Source: an uncultured Dokdonia sp. (GTDB lineage: Bacteria > Bacteroidota > Bacteroidia > Flavobacteriales > Flavobacteriaceae). Taken from it: a stretch of 41,132 nucleotides of DNA. Location: positions 1-41,132 of the forward strand of contig CAJXSW010000013.1 in assembly GCA_913060645.1 (NCBI GenBank), in the 5' to 3' direction. Below, one piece after another: positions 3,555-41,132 of the stretch. The notes under the pieces are model-generated. The model made no database searches, had not been told where the DNA came from, and saw only the letters and a program-made list of their open reading frames with translations. The position numbers and the translations under genes were made by a program. Numbering within the stretch: the stretch's first letter is position 1; every line of letters begins with the position of its first letter.

Positions 3555-3574
3555 TTACTTTCGCGAAAGCGTAC
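3555..3574. repeat. Dispersed palindrome copy 1
   Basis: Core ctttcgcgaaag (3558-3569) with an intact right flank (cgtac) and a degenerate left flank. It lies 18 bases beyond the stop of the minus-strand peptidase gene. Confidence 0.9.
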
Positions 3575-3591
3575 CACTCATTATAATTAAT

Positions 3592-5247
3592 CTATAGTTT
3601 CTGTAATACCGCAAGTTTTTTCTTTGCCGTTGGTACGAGTGCATTTGTAGGATCTTGTTTTATAAGCTTTGTATAATTTGCAATTGCTTTATCAGTTTGT
3701 TGCATTTCTTCTTGTGCGCTTGCAAGACTGTATAATGCTCCCGTAGACGCTGGATACATATTGGCTACCAGTTCTAAAATAAACAATCCGCCTTCTTTAT
3801 TACCACCTGAAAATAGTCTGTAGCCAGCTGTACCAAATTCATCTTGAAAATCATAGTATTTATATCTTGGATCTTTTGCCACTTGTATCCCCACAGATTT
3901 TACCTCTGCAAATTTACCTGCGGTAAATAACTCCGTGAGATAATCCATTGGGTTTAAAATAGCTCCGGTCTCATTATAATTGAGCGCTACGTCAAGCACG
4001 GGATCTTGATTTGTAAAATACTCCTCAGATGTCATCGCTACAGCTAGATGTGGTATGGTCCAGTCTTTATTATCCCACTGAGATCTATCTTGCCACCAGG
4101 CAAATGAGAGATATGCGTTGAGTCCAGAGTTAGGTAAAGTAACGCGTCTAGTATCGCCATAAAAGTTTATATTTTCGGCAGTGGGCTCTCCTACTATAAT
4201 TGCCTCTGTGTACTGCTCTATCTCATTTGTAAGATTTTGACAAGCAGAAAAGGTGTTACGACCTATAATATAAAAGAATTTACCACGGCTATTTATCTCA
4301 GGTCTTGCCATAAGTCCTTTTATGAGGGGTTTGTTGTTATAATTATTTCCACCACCGTTGAGACGCACGTCATACACAAGCTTCTGTACGTCTGTCTTAT
4401 CTATAAACTCAAAAAGACGTTTATAAAAATCGTGTAGCGTTTCTTCATCATCGTGAAAAACGGAGCTCTGACGCACATACAAGGTTTTTGTACCTGGTAT
4501 CATTTCAAAATAATACAGCTTGTCGTTAAGATGTTTTAAATAAAATGGAGTCACATCTTGCGCTCTACCACTCTCCCACTGCTCACTAGGGATTGTAAAG
4601 CCATAATCTCTTGATAACTCTTTAAGCGGTATCGCATTAAGGATATGGGTAAATTGTTTTCCATCCTTTTCTAATGTGAGTGTAACTGCCGTGCTGTATC
4701 TAGGTATTACTCCTTGAGCGTGCAATACTGCAGGCACGGTGAGAAAACGCATCCCGTAGGCTTTTAGATATGATTCATTTTCTACTGGTACAACGGCACG
4801 TACTTTTTCTATGGCTTGTAATACTGGTACAGTTCCTATTTTGAGAACTTTGGCGCCTATAATGGCTGCGTTTTCTTTAGTTGCCCCTTCTACAAATACA
4901 CCGTCTTCAAAATGATATAGATTTACAGGCAGCACTCCTTGTGATGCAACCGTACTAAAAGGTACTTGCGTGTGACCGTACTCAAAGAGTGACACCATAC
5001 GACTTAACCCTACTTTTACCTCGTGCTCTTGCATCGTAGGGATTTTATTATAAAATGCATCTGCGGCCGCATTCCATTTTTCGGCAGTGACTTTTTTAAA
5101 TAAGAAGGGGTATTCCTTATGTACTGTTTCTTTTAGATAAGTTAGATCTTCTTGCCACTGTGCAGCGGTAAGAGCCTCCTGAGCAAAAGCGCTTGCACTG
5201 CATAGTAGTACTAAGAGTGTAAGGCTAAGTTGTTTTATGATGGTCAT
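3592..5247 (-). CDS. S41-family (C-terminal processing-like) peptidase, exported
   Basis: 551 residues starting at the Met that opens the signal peptide (MTIIKQLSLTLLVLLCSASAFAQ, cleavage after AFA or AQ); the 28 upstream codons of the longer frame are not credible. The tail domain resembles S41 peptidases: KLVYDVRLNGGGNN near residues 289-302, then GRNTFSACQNL with the likely nucleophile Ser334. The C-terminal 50 residues look like a TPR unit (LYSLASAQEEMQQTDKAIANYTKLI). No PDZ domain is obvious. The family usually acts on peptides in the periplasm; the substrate is unknown. It lies downstream of the DUF4251 gene in the same direction, 176 bases away, with a terminator and a palindrome copy after its stop. 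Confidence 0.85.
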   Translation of the reverse strand: MTIIKQLSLTLLVLLCSASAFAQEALTAAQWQEDLTYLKETVHKEYPFLFKKVTAEKWNAAADAFYNKIPTMQEHEVKVGLSRMVSLFEYGHTQVPFSTVASQGVLPVNLYHFEDGVFVEGATKENAAIIGAKVLKIGTVPVLQAIEKVRAVVPVENESYLKAYGMRFLTVPAVLHAQGVIPRYSTAVTLTLEKDGKQFTHILNAIPLKELSRDYGFTIPSEQWESGRAQDVTPFYLKHLNDKLYYFEMIPGTKTLYVRQSSVFHDDEETLHDFYKRLFEFIDKTDVQKLVYDVRLNGGGNNYNNKPLIKGLMARPEINSRGKFFYIIGRNTFSACQNLTNEIEQYTEAIIVGEPTAENINFYGDTRRVTLPNSGLNAYLSFAWWQDRSQWDNKDWTIPHLAVAMTSEEYFTNQDPVLDVALNYNETGAILNPMDYLTELFTAGKFAEVKSVGIQVAKDPRYKYYDFQDEFGTAGYRLFSGGNKEGGLFILELVANMYPASTGALYSLASAQEEMQQTDKAIANYTKLIKQDPTNALVPTAKKKLAVLQKL

Positions 5248-5395
5248 TGGTTCGTTTTTTGATTTATATAAGAGACCACAAATAACACACAATGTTACAC
5301 CACCGCCACATGATATGCCCTGAACAGTCACAATTCACTCCCGAACTGTAACTCATTCATTACAAACTGCTTTACAGGTTTAAAAATGCCTTTTT

Positions 5396-5413
5396 ACGCT
5401 TTCGCGAAAGCGT
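5396..5413. repeat. Dispersed palindrome copy 2
   Basis: Perfect 18-bp palindrome acgctttcgcgaaagcgt, 10 bases downstream of the stop of the minus-strand DUF4251 gene, between two codirectional genes. Confidence 0.95.
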
Positions 5414-5423
5414 TATAACAACA

Positions 5424-5972
5424 TTATTCGGCATCTAAGTCAATAAATCCATCATAGCGAATGCTTGTGCGCTGCACGCTGTTTACAGAAATCTGAACTT
5501 TCTTGGTATTAAAAAATTCTATAAACACCTCATAGGTTTCAGCATCTTGAGATATAGAAAATTTCATTTCTGTGCGATCTGTTTTCTTGTCTTTGGTAAT
5601 TTCAAAAGATTTAGGAATTCCAGAAAATTCCACACCGTTTGATGAGTTATAGCCACCGCCCATCCTGCGCTCGCCATAATACGGTAAATAAGCGCTCACG
5701 CTATCATTATGGATTTTAAGAAAGTTACCATTACCCAGTAAATTGATGCGGCTACCGCTATTACCAGCCCCTAGCCCATTGTTTACTGCTAGTTGGTTGA
5801 GCACATTACTTGCCAGCGGGTATGCCCAGGTTGCTGTAATATCAATCTTGCGATTGTCTATTAATTCTTGCACACTGCTTGCTGTTGCCAGCTCTTGCTG
5901 CGTCATGGGTTCCTTAGTTTTACATGCGATTGCGAGTATAAGAAACGGGATGATGATGATGTATTTCTTCAT
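5424..5972 (-). CDS. DUF4251-family lipoprotein
   Basis: 182 residues starting at MKKYIIIIPFLILAIACK, a lipoprotein signal with Cys17; the longer frame upstream lacks a plausible start. After a short linker the mature part carries the pattern of DUF4251 proteins: a small N-terminal strand region, SVSAYLPYYGERRMGGGYNSSNG near the middle, an EFSGIPKSFEIT strand and a C-terminal VNSVQRTSIRYDGFI. DUF4251 proteins are common Bacteroidota envelope lipoproteins of unknown function. The family call is from recalled motifs. It is divergent from the MFS gene at 6089, so the intervening 116 bases hold both promoters. Confidence 0.8.
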   Translation of the reverse strand: MKKYIIIIPFLILAIACKTKEPMTQQELATASSVQELIDNRKIDITATWAYPLASNVLNQLAVNNGLGAGNSGSRINLLGNGNFLKIHNDSVSAYLPYYGERRMGGGYNSSNGVEFSGIPKSFEITKDKKTDRTEMKFSISQDAETYEVFIEFFNTKKVQISVNSVQRTSIRYDGFIDLDAE

Positions 5973-6077
5973 AAGATGCAGTTTTATTAGATAGGTAGCA
6001 AAAACTATTCCTTTGTGGGGTGTTAACACGGTGTTAGATTTTACATAAAACGACCATCGCTCGTAAGGCATTCTTGT

Positions 6078-6085
6078 ACTTTTGC
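6078..6085 (+). promoter_or_regulatory. Bacteroidota -7 element for the MFS gene
   Basis: tacttttg matches TAnnTTTG exactly and ends 3 bases before the ATG at 6089. If it is used, transcription would start at or next to the start codon, giving a leaderless mRNA. No clear -33 TTTG was found. Confidence 0.5.
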
Positions 6086-6088
6086 CGA

Positions 6089-7303
6089 ATGCAAAAAACG
6101 AAAGGATCGCAAATAGAATTTATCGCACTTATGGCGGCTTTAATGTCTGTCACCGCACTATCTATTGATGCCCTACTTCCAGCACTTGATATTATAGGTG
6201 TTGCGATACAAACCAAAACTCCCGCCGATAATCAGTTACTCATAAGCATGATTTTCTTAGGTCTAGGACTGGGACCACTCGTCTTTGGACCACTAGCCGA
6301 TGCTAAAGGTAGAAAATCTTCTGTTTACTTTGGGTTTACCGTCTTTATAATCGCTTCATTTATATGTATGTACACACGTAGTTTTGAAGTAATGATATTA
6401 GGCAGGATATTACAGGGCATCGGACTTTCGGCGCCGCGTACGATCTGTGTTGCCATCATAAGAGACCTTTATGAAGGTGATTATATGGCGCGTATCATGT
6501 CTTTTGTGACTGTAGTTTTTTTACTTGTTCCTATAATCGCTCCCGCTATGGGTAAAGTGATTCTTGACATCTGGAACTGGCAAGCGATTTTCTTAGTACA
6601 GGTAATAATAAGCCTCTTTGTAATGCTATGGTTCTGGAGGCGCCAAGAGGAAACACTCAAACCAGCAAATAGAATTCCTTTCTCTATGGAGCGTATCTCT
6701 AGGGGATTCCGCGAAACCATAAAATACAAGCGCACCATGGGATTCACGATTATACAAGGTTTTATTGTAGGTTCGTTTATTGTGTACATAAGTGCTAGTC
6801 AGCAAATTTTCCAAAATCAATATGGCCTCGTAGATGAGTTTCCTTACATTTTTGCCGGTCTTGCCTCGGCTATAGGCGCTGCCATCTTACTCAATGCCAA
6901 CTTTGTCGTGCGTTTTGGGATGGAAAAAATAGTCACTGGTGCCCTCATAGGCTTCTTTGTGGTGTCCTTGTTATATGTAATTTTATTTAATGATGTGTTG
7001 CATCCTTCGGTATATGTACTCATAGGGTTCTTTGCGATGCAGTTTTTCTGTATAGGTTTTATGTTTGGTAATCTTAGAGCACTAGCGATGGAGCCTGTAG
7101 GCCACATTGCTGGTATAGGAGCGGCAATTACGGGTCTTATTTCTACACTTATGGCAGTTCCCATCAGTACTTTTATAGGTCGTTTTATTGAGGAGACCAC
7201 GCTCCCACTCTTCATTGGTTTTTCTTCGTGTGCCGCAATATCACTCTGTATTCTGTTCTGGATAAAGAAAAAGGCTCCAAGAACGGTTGTCTTGAAGCCT
7301 TAA
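6089..7303 (+). CDS. Bcr/CflA-type MFS drug exporter
   Basis: 404 residues from the ATG at 6089 (MQKTKGSQIEF); the track's TTG five codons earlier lies in the promoter. About 12 membrane segments with the drug:H+ antiporter pattern: LSIDALLPALDII in TM1, the loop motif GPLADAKGRKSS between TM2 and TM3, and LGRILQGIGLSAPRTICVAIIRDLY in TM4. This matches the Bcr/CflA subfamily, which exports compounds such as bicyclomycin or chloramphenicol; the substrate here is unknown. An imperfect hairpin (about 7272-7300) overlaps the last codons and may help terminate transcription. It converges with the deaminase gene, with a palindrome copy between them. Confidence 0.88.
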   Translation: MQKTKGSQIEFIALMAALMSVTALSIDALLPALDIIGVAIQTKTPADNQLLISMIFLGLGLGPLVFGPLADAKGRKSSVYFGFTVFIIASFICMYTRSFEVMILGRILQGIGLSAPRTICVAIIRDLYEGDYMARIMSFVTVVFLLVPIIAPAMGKVILDIWNWQAIFLVQVIISLFVMLWFWRRQEETLKPANRIPFSMERISRGFRETIKYKRTMGFTIIQGFIVGSFIVYISASQQIFQNQYGLVDEFPYIFAGLASAIGAAILLNANFVVRFGMEKIVTGALIGFFVVSLLYVILFNDVLHPSVYVLIGFFAMQFFCIGFMFGNLRALAMEPVGHIAGIGAAITGLISTLMAVPISTFIGRFIEETTLPLFIGFSSCAAISLCILFWIKKKAPRTVVLKP

Positions 7304-7324
7304 TATAATTGTAGTGGTTATTAG

Positions 7325-7344
7325 TACGCTTTCGCGAAAGCGTA
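7325..7344. repeat. Dispersed palindrome copy 3
   Basis: Perfect 20-bp palindrome tacgctttcgcgaaagcgta between the convergent MFS and deaminase genes. It fills nearly half of the 50-base gap. Confidence 0.97.
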
Positions 7345-7353
7345 ACTCCATAA

Positions 7354-7797
7354 TCACTCGTTCCAAACTGCAGCAGCCTCTTCTCCAAGAAACTGTTGCA
7401 TGTTAAACTCTTGATCACGTGCCTCAATATCTCTAGCATAAAACATATCGCTATAGATAAAGCCAGCATCTTTTGCCATGGCAGCAGAAGCTCCGTAATA
7501 AATATGCTGAAATCGAGCCCATCTCGCTGCGCCTAAACACATCATGCAAGGCACGCAACTCGTATACAAATCACAATCTGAAAGATCCTTTGTACCCAGT
7601 ACTTTACAAGCTAGCTGAATACAGCGTAACTCTGCATGCTGCGTAGGATCTTGCGATCCTCCCACGAGATTATGACAAGCCGCAATGACTTGCCCAGAAC
7701 GAACAATGACGGCGCCAAAAGCGCCGCCACCGTCTGTATCTTTACCTTCTCGCGCTAGCGCAATGGCTTGCTGCATAAAAGATGACTGATAACTCAT
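7354..7797 (-). CDS. Nucleoside/guanine deaminase, CDA superfamily
   Basis: 147 residues, the usual length of a CDA-fold deaminase. Zinc and catalytic motifs are complete: HAE at 54-56 and PCMMC at 83-87. The C-terminal FIYSDMFY region resembles guanine deaminase (GuaD-type) more than tRNA adenosine deaminase TadA, so a purine base or nucleoside substrate is more likely than tRNA. The start codon lies 1 base after the stop of the aldehyde dehydrogenase gene, so the two are almost certainly cotranscribed. Substrate assignment is inference. Confidence 0.85.
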   Translation of the reverse strand: MSYQSSFMQQAIALAREGKDTDGGGAFGAVIVRSGQVIAACHNLVGGSQDPTQHAELRCIQLACKVLGTKDLSDCDLYTSCVPCMMCLGAARWARFQHIYYGASAAMAKDAGFIYSDMFYARDIEARDQEFNMQQFLGEEAAAVWNE

Positions 7798-7798
7798 A

Positions 7799-9196
7799 TT
7801 ATTCAGTTTCTGCTAGTAAAATAGACTTAGCATTTACAAATTCTTTAATCCCGAATCCTCCGTGCTCTCTACCATATCCAGAGTCTTTTACTCCTCCAAA
7901 AGGCATCATAGGCTGTGCAAGTCCGTAAGAATTAATGAATATCATTCCTGTATCGAAGTGCTCTTGTGCTAGCTTTACTGCTGCTTTTTCATCTTTAGAG
8001 AAAATTCCTCCTCCTAGTCCAAAACGGCTATCATTTGCTATGCGCATTGCATCTTCATTATCTTTTGCTTTAATTAAAGAAGCTACTGGGCCAAAGAGTT
8101 CGTCATCATAAGCTGGTTGTCCAGGCTGTACGTTACTTAGTACCGTAGATGGGTAGTAATATCCGCTACCATCTGGTATTTCTCCTCCAGTTTCAATCTT
8201 TGCTCCTTTTTCCACACTTTCTTTTACTTGGTCGCTTAGCAACTCTTGTAAATCTTTACGAGCAATAGGTCCGAGTTGTGTTCCCTCTTTATTAGGATCT
8301 CCCATAACCACATCTTTCATTCCTTGTACGAAACCTTCCTTAAATGCATCATACACCTTATCTACTACGATAAAACGTTTTGCTGCAATACAAGTCTCAC
8401 CATTATTTATGATTCTACCTTGTACACAAGCTTTTACAGCTTCTTCTACATCTGCATCATCAAGTACGATGTATGCATCGTTACTTCCCAGCTCTAACAC
8501 TGTTTTCTTAATTGATGCTCCTGCAGTTTTTGCTATGATTTTTCCTCCAGCAGAACTTCCTGTAAATGTCACTCCGCGTACTTTATCATTGCTTATCACC
8601 TTATCAGACTGTGCGTGATCTATCACAAGTACCTTAAAAAGTCCTTCTGGTACGCCAGCTTTAAGTAATAGCTCTTCTATCATTAATGCACTACCTGTTA
8701 CATTCTGAGCGTGCTTTAATAAAATCCCGTTACCCGCTAGTAAGTTGGCAATGGCAACTCTAAGTGGTTGGTACGTTGGGAAATTCCACGGCTGGATACT
8801 ATATATAACACCTTCTGGAGAAAAGTTGATAATTCCTTTTCCACCATCTAGTAGTGTTCTTTCTATAGGTTGTAATTCTTTTACTCCGTTTTCGGCAGTA
8901 TATTCTGTGATAGCAATACAAAGGTCAATCTCACTTTTTCCTTGCTCAATGGTTTTACCCATCTCATCGGTCATGAGTTGTACAAGTTGATCTTTATAAT
9001 TTTTAAGTTGCTCTCCTATATTCTTTATTACAGTGGCTCTATCGTCAAGCGATTGCATTTTCCAGTCATTAAAAGCGTCGTGACAGTTGTCTATCGCTTC
9101 TGTAACCTGATCATCTGTAAAATATGTATACTCCTTAATTGATTGTTCGGTATGAGGATTTATGGTTCTAAAACCTCCTTTTATTTCTCTTTCCAT
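7799..9196 (-). CDS. NAD(P)-dependent aldehyde dehydrogenase, succinate-semialdehyde type
   Basis: 465 residues covering a complete ALDH fold. Visible motifs: GVIYSIQPWNFPTYQPLR (cofactor domain), TFTGSSAGG, the general base in VLELGSNDAYIVLDDAD, the catalytic Cys in NNGETCIAAKRF, and PFGGVKDSGYGREHG near the end. Length and motifs fit the succinate-semialdehyde dehydrogenase group, which oxidises short semialdehydes to acids in the cytoplasm. It is the first gene of a two-gene unit with the deaminase, which suggests shared use in nitrogen-compound breakdown, but no pathway partner is nearby. On its strand a TAatTTTA sequence about 25 bases upstream of the ATG may be its -7 box. Confidence 0.9.
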   Translation of the reverse strand: MEREIKGGFRTINPHTEQSIKEYTYFTDDQVTEAIDNCHDAFNDWKMQSLDDRATVIKNIGEQLKNYKDQLVQLMTDEMGKTIEQGKSEIDLCIAITEYTAENGVKELQPIERTLLDGGKGIINFSPEGVIYSIQPWNFPTYQPLRVAIANLLAGNGILLKHAQNVTGSALMIEELLLKAGVPEGLFKVLVIDHAQSDKVISNDKVRGVTFTGSSAGGKIIAKTAGASIKKTVLELGSNDAYIVLDDADVEEAVKACVQGRIINNGETCIAAKRFIVVDKVYDAFKEGFVQGMKDVVMGDPNKEGTQLGPIARKDLQELLSDQVKESVEKGAKIETGGEIPDGSGYYYPSTVLSNVQPGQPAYDDELFGPVASLIKAKDNEDAMRIANDSRFGLGGGIFSKDEKAAVKLAQEHFDTGMIFINSYGLAQPMMPFGGVKDSGYGREHGGFGIKEFVNAKSILLAETE

Positions 9197-9319
9197 TGGT
9201 AATGTTTTTTTTGTTGTTGTAAAATTACGGGGAGACTACATGCTGAGAATGCACTTTAATAGTATTTAAGAGTTGTCTTTAGAGAAGTTTAACGAGTAAG
9301 GTATCATCTCTATAATAGG

Positions 9320-9355
9320 AAAGAGCCACTACCTTATATGTGGTAGTGGCTCTTT
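9320..9355 (-). terminator. 14-bp hairpin terminator after the 44-aa gene
   Basis: aaagagccactacc (9320-9333) pairs perfectly with ggtagtggctcttt (9342-9355) around an 8-base loop. It lies 46 bases after the stop of the small minus-strand gene and separates it from the aldehyde dehydrogenase unit. The T-tract is weak on both strands. Confidence 0.7.
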
Positions 9356-9400
9356 ATCAAGGGGTTTATCTTAAAAAAACTTACAAGTATTATATAAGTC

Positions 9401-9535
9401 TTACTCATTATCTAAAGTAACGTCTCCGTTACCTTTAATCTCAAATTCTTCTTTTGGGATGGTACGATTAAAGTTTGAAGATCTTCTGTGTGCGTCTTGA
9501 AAGTCTGCGTGCTTTTTGTTTTGTGTAGTATTCAT
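9401..9535 (-). CDS. Small 44-aa protein, hypothetical
   Basis: A 44-codon ORF with ATG at 9535 and TAA at 9401, starting MNTTQNKKHADFQDAHRRSS and ending in GNGDVTLDNE. It is very polar, with no membrane segment or cysteine. Support for a real gene: an A-rich leader (aaaaaaaacataaagct) typical of Bacteroidota start regions, codon choice like its neighbours, and its own strong hairpin terminator downstream. A TActTTTA sequence about 20 bases upstream may be the -7 element. No family is recognised. Confidence 0.65.
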   Translation of the reverse strand: MNTTQNKKHADFQDAHRRSSNFNRTIPKEEFEIKGNGDVTLDNE

Positions 9536-9608
9536 AGCTTTATGTTTTTTTTGATAAAAGTATTTTAAAGCATCATAGCTAGTTGTTAATCAAAATGCTA
9601 ATTCAGAG

Positions 9609-10328
9609 TTATTTAACGTTTTGAGCTACCGATGCTACAATGCCGTTCTCTGGTTCTGAAACATAAATAACTACTGTAATATCGTCATCCTTTGCTACCC
9701 ACGAAGGAATACTTAGAACCACATCTTGCTGATAATAAGAAGCTTGTTCTTTTTTGAAATTTGCAACGATGTGCGTATTTTTTAAGGTTTTATTTCTGTT
9801 TTCTCCTCTATTTACAATGGTCGTTTTTTCCTTTACAGTGAGAGCATACATAATTATAGCATTATCTGGAAGCTCTTTAAAACTTGCTTGAATAGTAACA
9901 CCTTGCGCCACACGCGCTACTGAAGCAATAGTAACTGCTGACTTATCAATACGACTAGTTTCACTAGCTACTGCTCCCCTTAGCTCTCTTTCATTAGATC
10001 CTACCACATGATTACGACCATTAATAACTGCTTGAGGAGTATAAACGCTCCTTATATTAAAAGTACGACCATAATCATATTGGTGATTTGTATTACTAGC
10101 AGATGCGTAAGGATCTTTCCAGCCTATATAATCCCAATAGTCTACATGATAAGATAGAATAATAACGTCCTCCTTAAGTTCTTCAGATAGACGAGCTATT
10201 AATTTATCTGCGGGTGGACAGCTACTACATCCTTGTGATGTAAATAATTCAATCACCGTAGGAGATTGACCGATTGCTGTAAATATTGTGCTTAATAATA
10301 AAAACGAAGTGAGCAGTATTGATTTCAT
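9609..10328 (-). CDS. DUF1223 thioredoxin-fold protein, exported
   Basis: 239 residues from MKSILLTSFLLL; a Met three codons upstream (10337) is also possible. Signal peptide of about 21 residues ends at AIGQ. Directly after comes the DUF1223 hallmark VIELFTSQGCSSCPPADKL, with CxxC at Cys34 and Cys37, then SYHVDYWDYIGWKDPYAS and VYTPQAVINGR. DUF1223 has a thioredoxin-like fold and is usually periplasmic; its partner is unknown. It is divergent from the basic-protein gene at 10604. Confidence 0.88.
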   Translation of the reverse strand: MKSILLTSFLLLSTIFTAIGQSPTVIELFTSQGCSSCPPADKLIARLSEELKEDVIILSYHVDYWDYIGWKDPYASASNTNHQYDYGRTFNIRSVYTPQAVINGRNHVVGSNERELRGAVASETSRIDKSAVTIASVARVAQGVTIQASFKELPDNAIIMYALTVKEKTTIVNRGENRNKTLKNTHIVANFKKEQASYYQQDVVLSIPSWVAKDDDITVVIYVSEPENGIVASVAQNVK

Positions 10329-10483
10329 AGGAGCCATTTTATAATGGGTCGAGAGTAGATAGGTTCCATTACATAGCCATTATTAGAATTAAAACGAAAC
10401 AATAGCAACAACGCTGATGCAATCAGTTTTTACCAATTTACAAAACTGTTATTCAGCAGATTAAGTGTTTTGTGGATTTAAAA

Positions 10484-10497
10484 TTTTCGCGAAAGCG
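10484..10497. repeat. Dispersed palindrome copy 4
   Basis: ttttcgcgaaagcg, with a degenerate left flank, in the divergent interval between the DUF1223 and basic-protein genes, about 40 bases upstream of the sigma-54-like promoter. Confidence 0.85.
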
Positions 10498-10505
10498 GTA
10501 CTACT

Positions 10506-10553
10506 ACCCTACTTGGTATAGGGTGCTTTTTAGACTTTGGCACGCTACTTGTA
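10506..10553 (+). promoter_or_regulatory. Sigma-54-like promoter with an upstream inverted repeat
   Basis: tggcacg (10538-10544), 4 bases, then ttgt (10549-10552) fits the sigma-54 -24/-12 consensus TGGCACG-N4-TTGC except that the last base is T. Transcription would start near 10564, giving a leader of about 40 bases before the ATG at 10604. Just upstream lies an inverted repeat accctA-N7-Tagggt (10506-10511 with 10519-10524) followed by a T-run, which may be an activator site or a small terminator. Confidence 0.6.
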
Positions 10554-10603
10554 ATTATCTAATCGTGAACATCAATCCACACAATTAATTAAAAACTAAC
10601 ATT

Positions 10604-11884: not shown

Positions 11885-11913
11885 GAATTAGATTTTTGGT
11901 TGGTTAGTTTGGT

Positions 11914-11953
11914 AGACCCTAGTTGCTATAAGCGCTAGGGTCTTCTTTTTTTT
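11914..11953 (+). terminator. Intrinsic terminator of the basic-protein gene
   Basis: agaccctag (11914-11922) pairs with ctagggtct (11935-11943), with a further gct/agc inside, followed by a T-tract at 11946-11953. Confidence 0.9.
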
Positions 11954-11988
11954 ATAACTTAGCTACTATTAACCATAAGTGTCTAAAT

Positions 11989-12477: not shown

Positions 12478-12483
12478 GATAAT

Positions 12484-12499
12484 TACGCTTTCGCGAAAA
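12484..12499. repeat. Dispersed palindrome copy 5
   Basis: tacgctttcgcgaaaa: intact left half, degenerate right half, 6 bases after the stop of the CAP-domain gene. Confidence 0.85.
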
Positions 12500-12550
12500 T
12501 GTGACCACTCAATTTCAGTATCTTAGGAACTTCAAAAACCATAATAACCA

Positions 12551-13867: not shown

Positions 13868-13901
13868 TTTCTCATTATAGAAATTAATCATTCTCAAAAA
13901 T

Positions 13902-13937
13902 AAAAGAGCCCAGAAGTTTATACTTCTGGGCTCTTTT
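13902..13937. terminator. Bidirectional terminator, dipeptidase and helicase genes
   Basis: Perfect 16-bp stem (13902-13917 with 13922-13937), 4-base loop, A-run on one side and T-run on the other, midway between convergent stops. Confidence 0.93.
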
Positions 13938-13969
13938 TATAAATATACTATGGTAGTTTCTTACAGAGA

Positions 13970-15493: not shown

Positions 15494-15545
15494 AAGTGTA
15501 GGTTTCTTCGGTTAAAAGTCAATCTTGCAAAACTAAGTGATTTTT

Positions 15546-15565
15546 ATGCTTTCGCGAAAGCGTAC
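15546..15565. repeat. Dispersed palindrome copy 6
   Basis: atgctttcgcgaaagcgtac, one mismatch in the outer arm, between the DUF6155 stop and the helicase start on the minus strand. Confidence 0.93.
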
Positions 15566-15634
15566 TGCAAGAATTCTTGACACAATTTTAAAAATTATGC
15601 CTTATTTATTGAAAATGGACGAAAGAGAGTGTTT

Positions 15635-21013: not shown

Positions 21014-21031
21014 TACGCTTTCGCGAAAGCG
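21014..21031. repeat. Dispersed palindrome copy 7
   Basis: tacgctttcgcgaaagcg, 6 bases after the stop of the ABC ATPase gene and 35 before the next start. Confidence 0.95.
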
Positions 21032-23149: not shown

Positions 23150-25081
23150 ATGCAGTTTAGACATCCAGAACTCCTTTACGCACTGTTCTTACTGCTCATC
23201 CCTATTCTCGTTCATTTATTCCAACTACGTAAGTTTAAAACAGAAGCGTTTACAAACGTTGCCTTTCTTCAAAAGCTCAACATTCAAACTCGTAAGAGTA
23301 ATTCCATAAAAAAATGGCTTGTGTTATTGTCTCGTATGGCGGCAATTGCTGCAATTGTGCTGGCATTTGCTCAACCATTTATCACACAGTCAGATAGTGC
23401 AACGCGAGAAAAGGAAACTATCATTTACTTGGATAACTCATTCAGCATGCAAGCAAAAGGTCCTTCTGGACAATTGCTGCGCACGGCTACGCAAGATATT
23501 ATTACTAATATTCCAGAGGATCAAACCTTCACTTTAATTACAAATACAGATACGTATAGAAACACCTCTATTAAAAATATGCGTAACGAGCTGCTACAAC
23601 TACCATATGCAGCGTCACAGTTATCTGAAACTGCCGTAACACTCAGAGCACAGAAAGAATTTTCTAGAGACCAATCAAAGGATAAGAGGCTCATTATGAT
23701 TTCTGACTTTCAGGATAATGGCGAGACATATCAGCTACAAACAGATGGTATAGAAAAACATTACGTGCAGCTCCAGCCTGTCATAAAAAACAATGTAAGT
23801 ATAGATTCCGTTTTTATATCACAAAGAAAATCAGGAAGCATAGCCCTTACTGTAGCGCTTTCAGCAGGTGAAAAGAAAGATATAAATACTGCCGTTTCTC
23901 TATACAACGGTGATCAATTACTGGCTAAGGGAACAGCATCTTTTGATAGCGAACTAACGACTACCGTAGTTTTTGATATAGACACAAAAGAAGAAATCGC
24001 AGGGCGTATCGTGATTGAAGATCCCCTACTCGCTTTTGATAACACCATGTTTTTTAACATTAATAAAAGTCAGCCCATCAAAGTGCTTGCAATAAATGGT
24101 GCAAACTCAGATTATTTGTCACGTATTTTTACGGCTCCAGAGTTTGAGTATAAAAGCACAAACATTAAGAACCTTGATTATAGCAGCATACCAGAGTTTA
24201 ATTACATTGTTGTAAATCAAGTTTCAGAAATAGGCGTATCTCTTAGTGGTGCTTTGAACGCTTTCGCGAAAGCGGGAGGAATCACCACCATTATTTTAGA
24301 TCCAAATGCAGATGCCGCTAGTTACAACAATGCGTTAAGAGATTTAGGAAACTTTGAAATCTCACAAAGTGAAACCACTAAACGATTAGTAACCACCATC
24401 AACTATGACCATCCTGTGTATAAAGATGTGTTTGATGCAAGGATAAAGAACTTTCAATATCCGTCTGTTTCAAAATCCTTTGCTTTACAAGGTGGAGATG
24501 CGTTACTTCGTTTTGAAGATGGAAGTCCTTTCTTATCATATGCTTCAAATTTCTTTTTAATCTCTGGAGGTATAGACGTTGCAAATTCAAATCTCCAAAG
24601 TTCGCCGCTCATAGTCCCTACATTTTACAATATGTCGCGACAGAGCTTGCAGTTGCCACGATTGTATATGCCCATAGGTATAAACACAACATACGACATA
24701 CCTGTCGCGCTTCAAGAAGATGATATTTTGAGTCTGGAAGACATGTTAGACCCCTCAAATACACTTATTCCTCTGCAACAATCTAAAGGAAATAAAGTGC
24801 AAATTACAACGAGTGACTCGCCATCTAAAGCAAGTATTTATAATATTAAACTAGCAGATAATACGGTACAGCAAGTCAGTTATAATTACAGTCGTAGCGA
24901 AAGCACATTACGATATGCTGCATTAAATACGGGTGCTACAGATCATTATAACAGCTCTGTAGAAGATCTTTTTGACGAATTCAAAACAGCAGATAGTGTC
25001 CAATCGCTTTGGAAATGGTTTGTTATTTTTGCTTTGTTATTCCTAGTACTAGAAATCTTGATTTTAAAATTCTATAAATGA
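23150..25081 (+). CDS. BatA-like membrane protein
   Basis: 643 residues. The N-terminal BatA signature (FRHPELLYALFLLLIPILVHLFQLRKFKTEAFTNV) gives one membrane segment and a second follows at about 58-76 (WLVLLSRMAAIAAIVLAFAQP). A large periplasmic part contains the start of a VWA-like strand (TIIYLDNSFSMQAKG, a DxSxS metal site) and a C-terminal anchor (WKWFVIFALLFLVLEILIL). BatA-type proteins belong to aerotolerance gene clusters, usually beside MoxR, but none is here. The next gene starts 4 bases before its stop (ATGA overlap). Palindrome copy 8 encodes residues NAFAKA near 370. Confidence 0.85.
   Translation: MQFRHPELLYALFLLLIPILVHLFQLRKFKTEAFTNVAFLQKLNIQTRKSNSIKKWLVLLSRMAAIAAIVLAFAQPFITQSDSATREKETIIYLDNSFSMQAKGPSGQLLRTATQDIITNIPEDQTFTLITNTDTYRNTSIKNMRNELLQLPYAASQLSETAVTLRAQKEFSRDQSKDKRLIMISDFQDNGETYQLQTDGIEKHYVQLQPVIKNNVSIDSVFISQRKSGSIALTVALSAGEKKDINTAVSLYNGDQLLAKGTASFDSELTTTVVFDIDTKEEIAGRIVIEDPLLAFDNTMFFNINKSQPIKVLAINGANSDYLSRIFTAPEFEYKSTNIKNLDYSSIPEFNYIVVNQVSEIGVSLSGALNAFAKAGGITTIILDPNADAASYNNALRDLGNFEISQSETTKRLVTTINYDHPVYKDVFDARIKNFQYPSVSKSFALQGGDALLRFEDGSPFLSYASNFFLISGGIDVANSNLQSSPLIVPTFYNMSRQSLQLPRLYMPIGINTTYDIPVALQEDDILSLEDMLDPSNTLIPLQQSKGNKVQITTSDSPSKASIYNIKLADNTVQQVSYNYSRSESTLRYAALNTGATDHYNSSVEDLFDEFKTADSVQSLWKWFVIFALLFLVLEILILKFYK
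24259..24274. repeat. Dispersed palindrome copy 8, inside the BatA gene
   Basis: Full 16-bp palindrome inside the reading frame, read as Ala-Phe-Ala-Lys-Ala; the frame is not broken. Confidence 0.95.
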
Positions 25082-27942: not shown

Positions 27943-28734
27943 TTATGTAGTTAAGGTAAGTCCGTCGTAAGCTAGAAAGACATTTTCGGGTAATTTTTGT
28001 TCGGCTTCTGCGTGAAAACCAAGATGGTGGCTTATATGCGTAAGATAGGTGCGCTTAGGTTTGATTTTTGCCACGAGAGCAAGCGCTTCCTCTACATTAA
28101 GATGTGTATAATGCGCTTCTTCCCTCAAGCAGTTTAACACGAGAATATCTAATCCTTGTAATTTTTCAATCTCCTCATCTGTAATAGTCTTAACATCTGT
28201 GAGGTAAGCAATATCTTGAAAACGATATCCAAAGACTTGCAATGATCCATGATATGCCTCAATAGGCTGCACTACGATATTACCTAATGTAATAGGTACA
28301 CCATTTACAACTTCTTTTGAAGCTACACTAGGTGCTCCGGGGTATCTATTTTCTGTCGTAAAAATGTAATCAAAACGTTCGGCAAGAGTTTTTAATACTC
28401 GTTTATGAGCATAAATAGGCATATCACCCTGTCTAAAAACAAAAGGTCTTATGTCATCCAGTCCAGCGACGTGATCTGCATGCTCGTGCGTTAATAATAT
28501 ACCATGTAAAGGTGCAGGATCTCCTGCGGTAGTACGCTTTCGCGAAAGCGTATTCAACATTTGTTGTCTAAAATCTGGACCACAATCTATTACATAATTA
28601 TAATCTTCCCATTCTATTAGAACAGAAACACGTAATCTTTTATCCCTAGCATCTGTGCTTAAACACACGGGATGTGTACTTCCTATTACAGGAATTCCTT
28701 GTGATGTGCCAGTACCGAGAAAGGTGATTTTCAC
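27943..28734 (-). CDS. MBL-fold hydrolase, PhnP-like
   Basis: 263 residues from a GTG at 28734. Opening MKITFLGTGTSQGIPVIG is typical of PhnP-like metallo-beta-lactamase-fold phosphodiesterases. Metal motifs: THEHADH at 82-88, IEAYHGSL, LTDVK and the C-terminal THISHHLG. Substrate is probably a cyclic phosphodiester or phosphonate-pathway compound, unproven. Palindrome copy 9 lies inside the gene, so TLSRKRT (62-68) in the loop just before the metal motif is encoded by the repeat and is probably an insertion compared with relatives. First gene of a two-gene unit. Confidence 0.88.
   Translation of the reverse strand: MKITFLGTGTSQGIPVIGSTHPVCLSTDARDKRLRVSVLIEWEDYNYVIDCGPDFRQQMLNTLSRKRTTAGDPAPLHGILLTHEHADHVAGLDDIRPFVFRQGDMPIYAHKRVLKTLAERFDYIFTTENRYPGAPSVASKEVVNGVPITLGNIVVQPIEAYHGSLQVFGYRFQDIAYLTDVKTITDEEIEKLQGLDILVLNCLREEAHYTHLNVEEALALVAKIKPKRTYLTHISHHLGFHAEAEQKLPENVFLAYDGLTLTT
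28533..28552. repeat. Dispersed palindrome copy 9, inside the MBL hydrolase gene
   Basis: Perfect 20-bp tacgctttcgcgaaagcgta, read on the minus strand as Thr-Leu-Ser-Arg-Lys-Arg-Thr. It is the same full-length form as the intergenic copies 3 and 12. Confidence 0.97.
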
Positions 28735-31349: not shown

Positions 31350-31368
31350 ATGCTTTCGCGAAAGCGTA
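31350..31368. repeat. Dispersed palindrome copy 10
   Basis: atgctttcgcgaaagcgta. The variant first bases create an ATG in frame with nth, but the true start is probably 31485. It lies downstream of tatcttta (31330-31337), a 7/8 match to the -7 box, so it may be in the nth leader. Confidence 0.93.
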
Positions 31369-31484
31369 AACTATCACATCTAGTGAAAGCATGGAATTAT
31401 AAAGTTACGAGTTCTCGCTATTACAATAAAGGAATACGTTTAAGCTTTATGGATTACACCATAAAGAATAATTATGCACATCAT

Positions 31485-32183: not shown

Positions 32184-32189
32184 CAAAGT

Positions 32190-33228: not shown

Positions 33229-36024
33229 ATGCTTATAGACGTTAAGGATGTAAATCCTAAGAAGAATATTATCATTAAGGGTGCCAAACTGCACAATCTT
33301 AAAAATATAAATGCAGTAATCCCTCGTAACAAGCTCATTGTTATCACGGGACTTTCTGGATCTGGTAAATCTTCTCTGGCTTTTGACACCCTTTATGCAG
33401 AGGGACAGCGCAGGTATGTGGAGAGCCTCTCCTCCTACGCTCGCCAGTTCTTGGGCAGACTTGATAAACCTAAGGTAGATTATATAAAAGGAATTGCTCC
33501 TGCCATTGCCATTGAGCAAAAGGTAAATAGCACAAACCCACGATCTACAGTAGGTACATCTACAGAGATTTACGATTATTTAAAGCTACTTTTTGCCCGT
33601 ATAGGTAAGACATATTCTCCTGTTTCTGGAAATGAAGTTAAAAAGGATACGGTATCAGATGTGGTTGCTCATGTTTCCGCTTTCGCGAAAAGAGAAAAAC
33701 TCCTCCTACTCGCTCCTATTCATTTAGAAAAAGGAAGAAAAATAGAATCTAAACTGCAAGCATTATTGCAACAAGGATATGCTCGTATACAAGTAAAAGG
33801 CGAAGTAAAACGCCTTGATGAAGTTGCGGAAATAGGAAGCAAACTGAAAGCAAAAGATGTACTACTCGTTGTAGATAGGATTATTAATAATCCAGAAGAT
33901 GAAGATTTTATAAACCGACTTTCAGATGCTGTACAGACGGCATTTTTTGAAGGAAAGGGCGAACTATTTATAGAAAAGCTAGCAGATAATTCTCGCCGCC
34001 AGTTTTCAAACAAGTTTGAGCTTGATGGAATTACTTTTTTAGAACCTAATGTTCACTTATTCTCTTTTAACAATCCTTACGGTGCATGCCCTACTTGCGA
34101 AGGTTATGGTGATGTAATAGGAATAGATGAAGATCTTGTAGTACCTAATACTGGACTATCAATCTACGAGAACGCCGTATTCCCATGGCGTGGTGATAGC
34201 ATGAGCCACTATCGCGATCAGCTCGTAAATCGTGCTTATAAATTTGATTTTCCTATCCATAAGCCTTGGTTTGAGTTAACTCCAGAGCAACAACAGCTTG
34301 TTTGGGACGGTAATAAAGAATTTGATGGGCTCAATAAGTTCTTTAAATTCTTAGAATCTAAGGCATATAAAATTCAGAACAGAGTAATGTTATCGCGCTA
34401 TCGCGGTAAAACAAAGTGTAATACCTGTAAAGGAAAACGCCTACGCCCTGAAGCAACTTATGTGAAAATAGGTGGTAAAAATATTGTAGATTTAGTAGAG
34501 CTACCACTAGACGAAGTCGCAGCTTTCTTTAAGAGCTTAACGCTTAATGAGTATGATACTACGGTTGCAAAAAGATTACTTACGGAGATCACAAGTAGAT
34601 TGAGCTTTCTAGATAAAGTAGGACTCAACTACCTTACGCTCAACAGAAAATCAAACACACTCTCTGGTGGTGAGTCGCAACGTATCAATCTTGCAACATC
34701 TCTTGGAAGCAGTCTTGTAGGCTCTATGTATATTCTTGATGAGCCAAGTATAGGTTTACACCCTAAAGACACAGAAAAGCTCATTGAGGTGCTACAATCG
34801 CTACGTGATCTCGGTAATACCGTTATCGTTGTAGAACATGACGAGGATATCATGAAAAAAGCAGATTTTATAATTGATATTGGCCCAGAAGCAGGAACCT
34901 TTGGAGGAGATGTGGTTGCTGTAGGTGATTATGATGAGATTTTAAAAAGCGATTCTCTAACTGCAGGATACCTCAATGGAACCTTAGAAATTGAAGTTCC
35001 TAAGAAGCGTAGAACTTCAAAGTTTTATGCCGAAGTTATAGGCGCTCGAGAAAACAACTTACAGAACGTAAACGTACGTTTTCCACTTGGTGTATTTACC
35101 GCTGTAACCGGTGTTTCTGGAAGCGGAAAATCTACCTTAGTTAGAAAAATATTATATCCTGCCATGCTTAAAGCAATAGGCGGCTATGGTGAAAAAGCAG
35201 GTCAGTTTACAGAACTCAAAGGGAACTATGACAATATAAAAACCATAGAATTTGTAGATCAAAACCCGATTGGAAGATCTTCTAGGTCCAATCCTGTGAC
35301 TTACATTAAAGCTTACGATGATATTCGTAAATTATTTGAAAGTCAGAAGCTTAGCAAAATAAGAAACTATAAAGCAAAACACTTTTCTTTTAACGTAGAT
35401 GGCGGTAGATGTGAGACTTGTAAAGGTGAAGGTGAAGTAACCATTGAGATGCAATTCATGGCAGATGTGCACTTAGAATGTGAAACTTGTAAGGGCAAGC
35501 GTTTTAAGAAAGAGGTACTCGAAGTACAATTCAACGATAAGAATATTGATGATATTCTCACGATGACTATTGATGATGCCGTGGCATTTTTTACAGCGCA
35601 TAATGAGGCAAAAATCACTCGCAAGCTTAAACCATTACAAGATGTAGGTCTAGGATATGTAACGCTAGGTCAAAGTTCCTCTACCCTATCTGGTGGTGAA
35701 GCACAGCGTATAAAACTTGCAAGTTTCTTAGTAAAAGGAACAACAAAGGATAAGACCTTATTCATTTTTGATGAACCTACGACAGGTTTACATTTTCATG
35801 ATATTAAAAAGCTCTTAGCTTCCTTTGAGGCACTTATTGCAAAAGGTCACTCTATTATTGTGGTAGAACACAACATGGATCTTGTAAAATGCGCAGACCA
35901 TGTTATTGATATGGGGCCAGAAGGTGGAAAAAACGGAGGTATTCTAGTCGCTTCCGGAACTCCGGAAGAGGTAGCAAAAAACAAGAAGTCCTTTACTGGA
36001 AAATACTTGAAAGAAAAACTCTAG
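33229..36024 (+). CDS. uvrA: Excinuclease ABC subunit A
   Basis: 931 residues, the usual length. UvrA finds bulky DNA lesions and loads UvrB in nucleotide excision repair. Two ABC ATPase halves: Walker [10 protein letters not shown] (41-49) and GVSGSGKST (about 627-635), signatures [14 protein letters not shown] and [14 protein letters not shown]. Zinc modules: [10 protein letters not shown] with CNTCKGKRL, and [10 protein letters not shown] with CETCKGKRF. Palindrome copy 11 encodes SAFAK at 150-154, a linker before [14 protein letters not shown]. No other uvr gene is adjacent. Confidence 0.97.
33678..33692. repeat. Dispersed palindrome copy 11, inside uvrA
   Basis: cgctttcgcgaaaag variant, left arm intact, right arm mutated (aaaag for aaagc). 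In frame as Ser-Ala-Phe-Ala-Lys-Arg. Confidence 0.85.
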
Positions 36025-36049
36025 TCGTTCTCAAACATATAATTCTCTC

Positions 36050-36909: not shown

Positions 36910-36913
36910 CAAG

Positions 36914-36933
36914 TACGCTTTCGCGAAAGCGTA
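36914..36933. repeat. Dispersed palindrome copy 12
   Basis: Perfect 20-bp tacgctttcgcgaaagcgta, 4 bases after the stop of the 279-aa gene. Confidence 0.97.
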
Positions 36934-36946
36934 ATAATTTCTACCT

Positions 36947-38467: not shown

Positions 38468-38491
38468 ATCACAACAACTAATAGCATTACT

Positions 38492-39286: not shown

Positions 39287-39301
39287 CATTAATTTGCTTT
39301 A

Positions 39302-39334
39302 AAAATCTCAAACAATCGTTTGGGATTTTTTTTT
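39302..39334 (+). terminator. Intrinsic terminator after the CBM9-like gene
   Basis: aaaatctcaaac (39302-39313) pairs with gtttgggatttt (39318-39329, one G-U pair), loop aatc, and a T-tract runs to 39334. Confidence 0.93.
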
Positions 39335-39352
39335 GCTTTCGCGAAAGCGTAC
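39335..39352. repeat. Dispersed palindrome copy 13
   Basis: gctttcgcgaaagcgtac, directly after the T-tract of the terminator. Confidence 0.95.
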
Positions 39353-39375
39353 TTCTAACACATACATTGTTTTAG

Positions 39376-39383
39376 TATCTTTA
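39376..39383 (+). promoter_or_regulatory. Likely -7 element for the M28 peptidase
   Basis: tatcttta matches 7 of 8 positions of TAnnTTTG, 29 bases before the ATG at 39413. Confidence 0.4.
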
Positions 39384-39412
39384 AAACGTAACAAATTATT
39401 AAACCCTTCATA

Positions 39413-40798
39413 ATGATAAACACGCATACGTCTACCCTATTTAAATCTCGTAATAACGCATACACAACACTTCTATTTGCTGTTGTAACAATGCTATTAT
39501 CGATTAGTGATATAAGCGCTCAAACAGATGATAGAATCTACGAAATTATAGATGCAGTATCTGAAGATCGCTTGAGAGCAGATGTAAAGAAATTAGCCGA
39601 TTTTGGGACACGGCATACATTAAGTGATACTGTATCAAACACAAGAGGAATAGGAGCTGCGAGAAGATGGATAAAAAGCGAATTTGAAAAGACTTCGCAA
39701 AACTGTAATAATTGTCTAGATGTATTTTATCAAAGTAACCTTATAAAAAAAGGCGATAATGATCGTATCACAAAAGATGTGATGGTTGTAAATGTACTGG
39801 CAGTTCAAAAAGGAACTAAATATCCTAATCGCTATGTAATTATGAGTGGGGATATAGACAGCCGTATATCTGATCCTAATAATTATACAGATGACGCGCC
39901 AGGAGCAAATGATAACGCCAGCGGAATGGCTGGAACGATGGAAGCTGCAAGAGTACTTTCTAAATATTCTTTTGAGAACAGTATTATCTACGTAGGTCTT
40001 TCTGGTGAAGAACAAGGACTTTATGGTGGAAAAGGACTTGCTGCCCATGCTAAAGAAAAAGGATGGGAAATCATCGGGATTATGAATAATGACATGATAG
40101 GTAACATTGAAGGTGTAGATGGCGTTATTGATAACCGTACGTTTAGAATTTTCTCTGAGCCTGTACCTCCTACAGAGACAGAGCAGCAACGCAGAGCTCG
40201 CCGTTTTTATGGTGGTGAGGTAGATGGAATTTCTCGCCAACTAGCAAGATTTATTTACAAAACTACACAAGACTACATGCCAGAAATGAACCCTATGATG
40301 GTGTATCGTTTAGATCGTTTTGGTCGTGGTGGTCACCACAGACCTTTTAATGACGCTGGTTTTGCAGGTATCCGTATCATGGAAGCTCATGAAAACTACA
40401 CACAACAACATCAAGATATCCGTACAGAAAACGGCATTAACTACGGAGATACGTTTGAGCATGTAAACTTCCCATATAACGCAAAGCTTACTGCGGTAAA
40501 TGCAATTAACCTTGCAAGTATTGCTTGGGCACCTCCTACTCCTAAAAATTTAGGCATTGGTGGTATTGTAGAGGCAAACGCGAGATTACAATGGGATGAA
40601 GTTGAAGGAGCAGTAGCTTATAAAGTGTACTGGAGAGATACGACTTCACCTACTTGGGACAATGCACGTCTTGTTACAGATGGAACTTCGGCAACATTGA
40701 AAGGAATCGTAATTGACAACTTTTTCTTTGGCGTTGCTGCTGTAGGTAAAGATGGTCATGAAAGTCCTGTTGCTTTCCCTAGCCAGATTATTAGATAA
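39413..40798 (+). CDS. M28-family zinc aminopeptidase, exported
   Basis: 461 residues with a signal-like segment (residues 18-36, ending SDISAQ). M28 metal motifs: MSGDIDSR (about 144-151; the first ligand, usually His, is Asp here), PGANDNASG (163-171), YVGLSGEEQGLYGGK and NNDMIGN; MEAHENYTQQHQD carries the late His. A C-terminal domain of about 90 residues (APPTPKNLGIGGIVEANARLQWDEVEGAVAYKVYWRD) has a fibronectin-III-like pattern. It probably removes N-terminal residues from peptides outside the cytoplasm. Confidence 0.88.
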   Translation: MINTHTSTLFKSRNNAYTTLLFAVVTMLLSISDISAQTDDRIYEIIDAVSEDRLRADVKKLADFGTRHTLSDTVSNTRGIGAARRWIKSEFEKTSQNCNNCLDVFYQSNLIKKGDNDRITKDVMVVNVLAVQKGTKYPNRYVIMSGDIDSRISDPNNYTDDAPGANDNASGMAGTMEAARVLSKYSFENSIIYVGLSGEEQGLYGGKGLAAHAKEKGWEIIGIMNNDMIGNIEGVDGVIDNRTFRIFSEPVPPTETEQQRRARRFYGGEVDGISRQLARFIYKTTQDYMPEMNPMMVYRLDRFGRGGHHRPFNDAGFAGIRIMEAHENYTQQHQDIRTENGINYGDTFEHVNFPYNAKLTAVNAINLASIAWAPPTPKNLGIGGIVEANARLQWDEVEGAVAYKVYWRDTTSPTWDNARLVTDGTSATLKGIVIDNFFFGVAAVGKDGHESPVAFPSQIIR

Positions 40799-40837
40799 CA
40801 ATACATATTGATTTTAAATCATCACAACATATACCTT

Positions 40838-41132
40838 ATGAAAAAAGTATTAATACTAAGTGCCCTTATTGCTGGTACCGCTTTCGCGAAAGCGCAAACC
40901 TCTTTTGACAAAGATATTGCTGCTGTAGAAGCTAAAGTAATAGAGTGGCGCAGGGATTTCCATCAAAATCCAGAACTAGGAAATCGCGAATTCAAAACTG
41001 CCGAGAAAATAGCAAAACACCTCGAATCTTTAGGAATTGAAGTACAAACAAGAGTTGCTAAAACTGGAGTCGTAGGCTTACTTAAAGGAGATATGCCAGG
41101 TAAAGTGGTTGCTTTAAGAGCAGATATAGACG
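40838..41132 (+). CDS. M20-family amidohydrolase/peptidase, 3' end cut by window
   Basis: 98 codons visible, start MKKVLILSALIAGTAFAKAQ with cleavage after KAQ or AFA. Then FDKDIAAVEAKVIEWRRDFHQNPELGNREFKTAEKIAKHLESLG matches the opening of M20 amidohydrolases (N-acyl-amino-acid or hippurate type), and the first metal region would follow after VALRADID. Palindrome copy 14 encodes AFAKA at residues 15-19, right at the signal-peptide cleavage region. It follows the M28 gene by 39 bases in the same direction, so peptide degradation may be shared. Confidence 0.88.
   Translation, partial: MKKVLILSALIAGTAFAKAQTSFDKDIAAVEAKVIEWRRDFHQNPELGNREFKTAEKIAKHLESLGIEVQTRVAKTGVVGLLKGDMPGKVVALRADID
40879..40894. 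repeat. Dispersed palindrome copy 14, inside the M20 gene
   Basis: Full 16-bp cgctttcgcgaaagcg in frame; read as Ala-Phe-Ala-Lys-Ala at the end of a signal peptide. Confidence 0.95.

Follow-up and report, generated by a model that had tools for sequence, protein, structure and literature searches.

The window analysed here is the whole 41,132-nucleotide stretch of contig CAJXSW010000013.1 (C13 in our numbering) from an uncultured Dokdonia sp. of the Flavobacteriaceae (assembly GCA_913060645.1), whose draft genome (G000) comprises 3.11 Mb in 219 contigs and is 89% complete. It holds 14 copies of a short palindrome with the core TTTCGCGAAA, and comparison within and between genomes showed this palindrome to be a genome-wide signal at the level of DNA. 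The 16-mer CGCTTTCGCGAAAGCG occurs exactly seven times in the window and 15 times at up to three mismatches, against 0.04 expected from shuffled sequence. The core is intact in 14 of these matches and broken in the fifteenth (25454), which was rejected as a copy of the palindrome. A sequence-only reading of this DNA had described a 14-copy family with a longest form of 20 bp; the coordinates agree with ours, and the 20-bp form was seen three times. The copies, listed without strand, differ in their genic context and in which of the two flanking GC arms is intact:

Site 1, 3556..3571: intergenic; right GC arm alone intact.
Site 2, 5397..5412: intergenic; full 16-mer.
Site 3, 7327..7342: intergenic, between converging genes; full 16-mer within a 20-bp palindrome.
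Site 4, 10482..10497: intergenic, between diverging genes; right GC arm alone intact.
Site 5, 12486..12501: intergenic, centre 16 bp past a stop codon; left GC arm only, the same in 3/3 near relatives.
Site 6, 15547..15562: intergenic; both GC arms; in the relative G004 a single substitution breaks it.
Site 7, 21016..21031: intergenic, centre 16 bp past a stop codon; full 16-mer.
Site 8, 24259..24274: within gene 23150-25081; full 16-mer; encodes AFAKA.
Site 9, 28535..28550: within minus-strand gene 27943-28734, where it encodes TLSRKR; 20-bp palindrome containing the full 16-mer.
Site 10, 31351..31366: at the doubtful start of open reading frame (ORF) 31350-32156; both GC arms.
Site 11, 33678..33693: within uvrA-like gene 33229-36024; left GC arm only; encodes AFAK.
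Site 12, 36916..36931: intergenic, centre 14 bp past a stop codon; 20-bp palindrome containing the full 16-mer.
Site 13, 39334..39349: intergenic; both GC arms.
Site 14, 40879..40894: within an ORF that continues beyond the window; full 16-mer.

Of the 14 copies, nine or ten are outside genes, close to the ten reported from the sequence alone. The ORF-based annotation places five inside, including the doubtful one at 31351; the true start of ORF 31350-32156 is probably further in, which would make that copy intergenic. The earlier statement that several copies follow shortly after a stop codon also held, several centres being 14-19 bases from a stop.

Enrichment of the palindrome is not confined to the window. 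Counted genome-wide, a check that had been proposed with the earlier reading, the exact 16-mer occurs 503 times across 3.11 Mb and its reversed control not at all. We also examined 441 kb of G000 in detail (a 400 kb sample plus the window), which contained 140 TTTCGCGAAA cores. Both GC arms were present in 99 of these, one in 41 and neither in none. Because at least one flanking GC accompanies 140/140 cores, the constant unit is the 12-mer TTTCGCGAAAGC and not the symmetric 10-mer; the earlier proposal of a constant core of 10-12 bases therefore stands in that the ten bases are found in all 14 copies, and is corrected in that the constant part is the longer word. TTTCGCGAAAGC is usually completed to a palindrome of 14-20 bp, (ta)CGCTTTCGCGAAAGCG(ta), and there are weaker preferences flanking the unit for G (84%), T and A. 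Across G000 the 12-mer matches 817 times on the forward and 817 times on the reverse strand (reversed control, 0 and 1). Exact strand matches at the 140 sites of the G000 sample numbered 239, whereas base composition predicts 0.04 and the reversed word gave 0; the 12-mer is over-represented approximately 6,800-fold. One-mismatch forms numbered 34 (1.4 expected, 6 reversed), and two-mismatch forms 60 (24.7 expected, 67 reversed). The excess thus stops at one mismatch, since the two-mismatch count is no higher than that of the reversed word. G001, another Dokdonia, behaved similarly, with 270, 27 and 27 strand matches at zero, one and two mismatches against 1, 7 and 64 for the reversed word. Applying the ratio of 239 strand matches per 140 sites to 817+817, we extrapolate to approximately 950 sites in this incomplete genome, or about one per 3 kb.

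Exact 16-mers were found in 18/18 Dokdonia genomes (138-711 per genome; reversed control, 0), in which the 12-mer occurs 421-1049 times per strand. Two other carriers, G027 and G207, have 476-588 12-mers per strand, and the reversed 12-mer never exceeds three per strand in any of these 20 carriers. Among 21 other genomes of the family, 15 lacked the 12-mer, five had 1-7 strand matches in all, and G093 had 19 and 23. A survey of the family with one genome per genus (199 genomes) identified at least one exact 16-mer in 26; besides G000, only G027 (495) and G207 (153) had many, and the remaining 23 had 1-12. In a survey of the class (295 genomes) the 16-mer was present in five, namely G000 and four genomes with 1-2 copies, and the reversed control gave one match in one genome. 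The named Nonlabens loci L082 and L107 contain four sites per 21 kb each, a locus from a metagenome-assembled genome (L057) contains one, and no site was present in the three Leeuwenhoekiella loci examined. The palindrome is therefore used densely by Dokdonia, by Nonlabens and by one or more further genera. A tree of one protein grouped Dokdonia, Nonlabens and G027, the last with Nonlabens, and placed G207 beside Leeuwenhoekiella; a single clade of all carriers was not rejected by this tree (p-AU 0.622). The assignment of G000 to Dokdonia is based on its named neighbours and on the same tree. A screen for repeated 10-bp palindromes in 80 named Flavobacteria loci, none longer than 21 kb, recovered TTTCGCGAAA in four carrier loci and otherwise only AT-rich words. 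A literature search with the exact palindrome words returned only unrelated work, as judged from titles and the beginnings of abstracts.

To follow individual sites, we aligned the window with 13 Dokdonia loci, which matched it over differing extents. Coding sites were retained in 34 of 40 aligned comparisons where 7.4 were expected from all aligned 12-mers, and intergenic sites in 27 of 34 where 13.7 were expected; these comparisons are not independent, owing to shared ancestry, and intergenic sites that could not be aligned drop out of them. Substitutions affected 40 of 888 positions within sites (4.5%) versus 775 of 3460 in the flanks (22%). Selection on the DNA itself holds the sites in place against substitution. 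Site 9, at 28538, is intact in 13/13 Dokdonia. The 12-mer in the uvrA-like gene has gone from G001, G016 and G008, yet the DNA there still encodes AFAK. Near relatives without a site differ by single substitutions, as in G004 at 15550 and 21019, and intergenic differences at sites in more distant relatives include insertions and deletions. G001 and G016 lack the sites at 21024 and 31359 but carry sites at positions corresponding to 21708 and 32171; site 10 (31351..31366) is also absent from G009.

The coding sites impose genus-specific residues on their host proteins. Within Dokdonia the encoded residues are nearly constant (TLSRKR in 12/13, AFAK in 10/10 and AFAKA in 7/8). The same positions are variable in Nonlabens (two rows each) and in other genera (73, 50 and 43 rows), a comparison made among the 14 commonest forms listed. 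The TLSRKR positions of the first of these genes are mostly gapped in Nonlabens and other genera, most other genera being gapped at site 28538 in the protein alignment; the positions of coding sites 24262 and 33681 align without gaps in the other-genus forms among those 14.

Placement relative to genes was determined in the detailed sample from ORFs with a hexamer score, without a dedicated gene finder. Called coding sequence makes up 90.5% of the sample and contains 61 of the 140 sites, leaving 79 outside. Intergenic density is highest between converging genes (2.92/kb), followed by tandem (1.95/kb) and diverging genes (1.45/kb), the last with 15 of the 140 sites. The distance from site centre to stop codon is below 30 bp in 33 of 78 cases, and no site centre lies within 23 bp of a start codon. 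Coding sites use all three reading frames (13, 19 and 29), and there is little conservation of sequence around the sites. Sites with only one GC arm are unoriented: 15 coding examples divide into six in the same and nine in the opposite orientation to the gene, and 11 tandem examples into six and five. In G001 such sites numbered eight against four without a visible link to GC skew, although these numbers are small.

The sites are also spaced more evenly than chance. In G000 the 129 gaps have a mean of 3.1 kb and a coefficient of variation (CV) of 0.59, against 1.005 +/- 0.076 (minimum 0.78 of 2000) under a null model that keeps the split between coding and intergenic sites. Only three gaps are shorter than 500 bp where this null predicts 25.6, and 86 of the 129 measure 1.5-4 kb. 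A stricter null, in which no gene or intergenic region could hold more than one site, gave a CV of 0.838 +/- 0.061 (minimum 0.664 of 3000) and 10.0 expected gaps below 500 bp. The CV in G001 is 0.54 versus 0.90 for a uniform null, and measured without a null it is 0.46 in G027 and 0.73 in G207. Each of 20/20 stretches around the single-contig chromosome of G001 contains 5-9 sites.

Stray copies in other genera were read in 20 stretches, which represent 16 of the 23 genomes with few copies, and in nine of these 16 the stretches form mutually similar blocks. One block is common to G185 and G093 and another to G189 and G190. Nine proteins were scanned: two are RND permeases, two are P-type ATPases, of which one has heavy-metal domains, and the others include an outer-membrane efflux protein, an AraC-type regulator and a conjugative-transposon TraM; the remaining two had marginal matches only. 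In the efflux blocks (L122, L123, L125-L132, L136 and L139, from nine other-genus genomes), with their RND permeases, outer-membrane efflux proteins and P-type ATPases, most palindromes lie within genes and some occupy matching positions, although elsewhere the host genomes contain few copies or none. L137 and L140, from two genera, have a common block with the palindrome at the end of a gene for a 309-aa protein, identified as TraM in L137. In G093 there are 14 TTTCGCGAAA cores in the 57 kb read, and its ortholog is identical to that of an uncultured Ulvibacter. The simplest reading is that stray copies represent transfer from carriers of the motif. Whether it is an organising address or an uptake signal, the palindrome marks gene flow, the stray copies pointing to metal-efflux blocks that probably came from carriers.

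Two Nonlabens phages (L480 and L481; 35.7 and 35.65 kb) contain no site, and no TCGCGA at all, but the two are so alike that they barely count as separate observations. Positions 1-3560 of the window have a GC content of 0.284 and a 984-aa ORF, the first 3.5 kb being without a site, and synteny with G004 starts only at 3168; this part is probably an island. The longest site-free gap sampled (11.9 kb, GC content 0.326) lies in the same genome on contig C7 at 3833-15723 (L034), and also probably represents an island; the beginning of a 678-aa protein in it resembles that of an ATPase. Avoidance of islands by the sites is only suggested, because site-free gaps of 7-9 kb with ordinary GC content and ordinary genes exist too.

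Half-site-tolerant symmetry, uniformity around the chromosome, even spacing and coding constraint together argue for a double-stranded address that is needed evenly. The inferred reader is a symmetric, homodimeric protein that recognises the signal sequence-specifically in double-stranded DNA, requires a single perfect half-site and mostly finds two. Our best explanation, a tentative one, is that this predicted, probably dimeric reader most likely organises the chromosome, and the symmetric protein site and chromosome-organising role named among the earlier candidates survives as the leading reading. The reader would be an intracellular factor for chromosome organisation or maintenance that needs an address every few kb, so that a single site would be useful mainly where no other site is near. 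Sites would arise and vanish largely by point mutation in tolerant places, such as just past stop codons or in variable protein stretches, and some absent sites have a nearby substitute. A bolder version, which we consider possible, is a sequence-encoded ruler in which a dimeric protein, bound to exact palindromes at intervals of a few kb, folds the whole chromosome into regular short loops. On that version the spacing itself would be selected, with close sites avoided, lost ones replaceable nearby and residues of host proteins set by the sites. An organising address would mean a system of evenly spaced, high-copy sites over the whole chromosome, and its reader could be isolated with a single 20-mer.

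Several observations weigh against an organising address. Replacement of lost sites is not general: G004 has lost 15555 and 21024 unreplaced, leaving a bare 11.8-kb gap, and G016 has a gap of 10.5 kb. The substitutes at 21708 and 32171 may each go back to one event, given the close kinship of G001 and G016. The ordinary 7-9 kb gaps count on the same side, as does the less regular spacing of G207 (CV 0.73, measured without a null). The efflux-block copies in other genera are not specifically explained by chromosome organisation. No reader protein was identified in this analysis, and we know of no nucleoid protein with approximately 1000 evenly spaced palindromic sites of 12-16 bp. Even spacing has, moreover, been described for the uptake sequences of Haemophilus in the excerpts of PMC1939737, which also describe it as less even than compaction would need.

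DNA uptake is the nearest rival. The palindrome would be a self-recognition sequence like the uptake signal sequence (USS) of Haemophilus or the DNA uptake sequence (DUS) of Neisseria, with a surface or periplasmic receptor preferring DNA that contains the 12-mer and repeated transformation raising its density. The exact 12-mer stands far above its one-mismatch forms, as in known uptake sequences, two of which drop 92- and 82-fold to one-mismatch forms (PMC1939737, excerpts). The intergenic preference with coding copies at tolerant places, half-only sites without orientation bias, changes at sites by point mutation, and the lack of sites in the two Nonlabens phages and the two lowest-GC stretches seen all agree with uptake. 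A preference for own DNA is also reported for Riemerella columbina, assigned to the Flavobacteriaceae by its authors. We ran profile searches (C5 methyltransferase, PF01555, Y1/RAYT, PF00482 and ComEC) on 40 genomes, 21 of them non-carriers. The 19 carriers comprised G027, G207 and every Dokdonia genome except G012 (17 of 18); four carriers are less than 90% complete. The ComEC family was present in 19/19 carriers, but also in 20/21 non-carriers, and so does not discriminate. However, PF00482, the platform protein of type IV pili (T4P) and type II secretion systems, was absent in 13/19 carriers, including the single-contig genomes G001, G004, G005, G007 and G207; it was present in the other six and in 4/21 non-carriers, other parts of such machines not being searched for. 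A classical uptake sequence is opposed chiefly by the missing platform protein. This argument is not final: Riemerella columbina, which its authors place in the same family, is reported to prefer its own DNA. Further points against uptake are that two-mismatch forms show no excess in G000 (60 vs 67 for the reversed word), that the palindrome is symmetric where known uptake sequences are not (again from the excerpts of PMC1939737), and that literature on Dokdonia with competence or transformation yielded nothing on the subject by title. Because of the palindrome and the missing pilus, we rank chromosome organisation above uptake, which we regard as possible. The uptake signal listed among the earlier candidates thus survives, weakened by the absence of the platform protein in most carriers. 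Should the palindrome be an uptake signal, our searches of the open-access literature found no earlier one in Bacteroidota, and it would operate without the usual pilus in most carriers tested.

Three other explanations fit less well. An improbable one is a HIP1-type highly iterated palindrome, created or kept by a DNA methyltransferase with linked repair or recombination. Dispersed over-representation of a GC-rich palindrome in coding and non-coding DNA is shared with HIP1 (PMC4390886, excerpts), and outside the sites some half-site words are in mild excess in G000 (GAAAGC, 270 vs 176 expected; GCGAAAGC, 14 vs 6), with more such words in G207. Against this, CGCG (369 vs 531 expected in G000) and TCGCGA (35 vs 52) do not exceed expectation outside the sites in any of the four genomes counted (G000, G001, G027 and G207). 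The C5-methyltransferase family PF00145 was found in 9/19 carriers and absent in 10/19, and PF01555 scored above cut-off in G027 and G207 but in 0/17 Dokdonia, three of which gave weak matches under the cut-off, other methyltransferase families not being searched. With neither family in all carriers, the methylation role suggested earlier is disfavoured. A transcription terminator or hairpin at the 3' end of mRNA is very unlikely. The peak between converging genes, the short distances to stop codons and the folding of the 20-mer RNA at -7.3 kcal/mol favour it; but 61 of the 140 sites lie in genes and 15 between diverging genes, and the unoriented half-only sites (41/140) keep the exact 12-mer while two folded examples lose the symmetric stem, observations that also speak against the 3'-end element of the earlier reading. 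Least likely of all is a mobile palindromic repeat of the repetitive extragenic palindromic (REP) or REPIN type spread by a RAYT transposase. The sites are indeed short, palindromic, mostly intergenic and near gene ends, site 28538 lies in a stretch gapped in most other genera, and distant intergenic differences include insertions and deletions. However, the Y1/RAYT family occurs in only 4/19 carriers, sites 24262 and 33681 align ungapped in the listed forms, near relatives differ by single substitutions, the coding copies are independent of frame, and the sites are evenly spaced.

Among known classes of repeated sequence, CRISPR repeats were rejected, the palindrome occurring as single copies 0.1-12 kb apart and not as a clustered array whose spacers share one length. 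The exclusion of both CRISPR and REP in the sequence-only reading is borne out by this dispersal and by the lack of a Y1/RAYT transposase in 15/19 carriers. Chi is asymmetric and co-oriented with replication; it was rejected since the Dokdonia motif is mostly palindromic, with half-only sites unbiased to the gene strand in G000 and without a GC-skew link in G001 (8 vs 4). Noc and its binding sites (NBS), parS, and MatP with matS are palindromic protein sites linked to chromosome organisation that have at most tens of copies in restricted regions. The Dokdonia palindrome resembles them in symmetry, in length and in the proposed role, and differs in having approximately 950 copies, uniform around the one chromosome sampled; a regional organiser of this kind was rejected, as the 20 stretches of G001 reveal no restricted region. 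REP and REPIN sequences with their RAYT are likewise short intergenic palindromes near gene ends, whereas the Dokdonia motif lacks the transposase in most carriers, changes by substitution and has little conserved surrounding sequence. HIP1 (GCGATCGC) of cyanobacteria is, like the Dokdonia motif, a dispersed and hugely over-represented palindrome of one clade. The Dokdonia motif is longer (12-16 bp against 8), its inner CGCG and TCGCGA are not enriched, and it has a strong intergenic bias, regular spacing and no conserved methyltransferase of the two families tested. The USS and DUS share with it an exact core of 9-12 bp far above one-mismatch forms, approximately 1000 or more copies, intergenic preference with genic copies, lack of orientation and reported even spacing. 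The Dokdonia motif differs from them in being palindromic, in its frequency of about one per 3 kb without a two-mismatch excess in G000 and G001, and in the absence of the T4P platform protein from most carriers tested.

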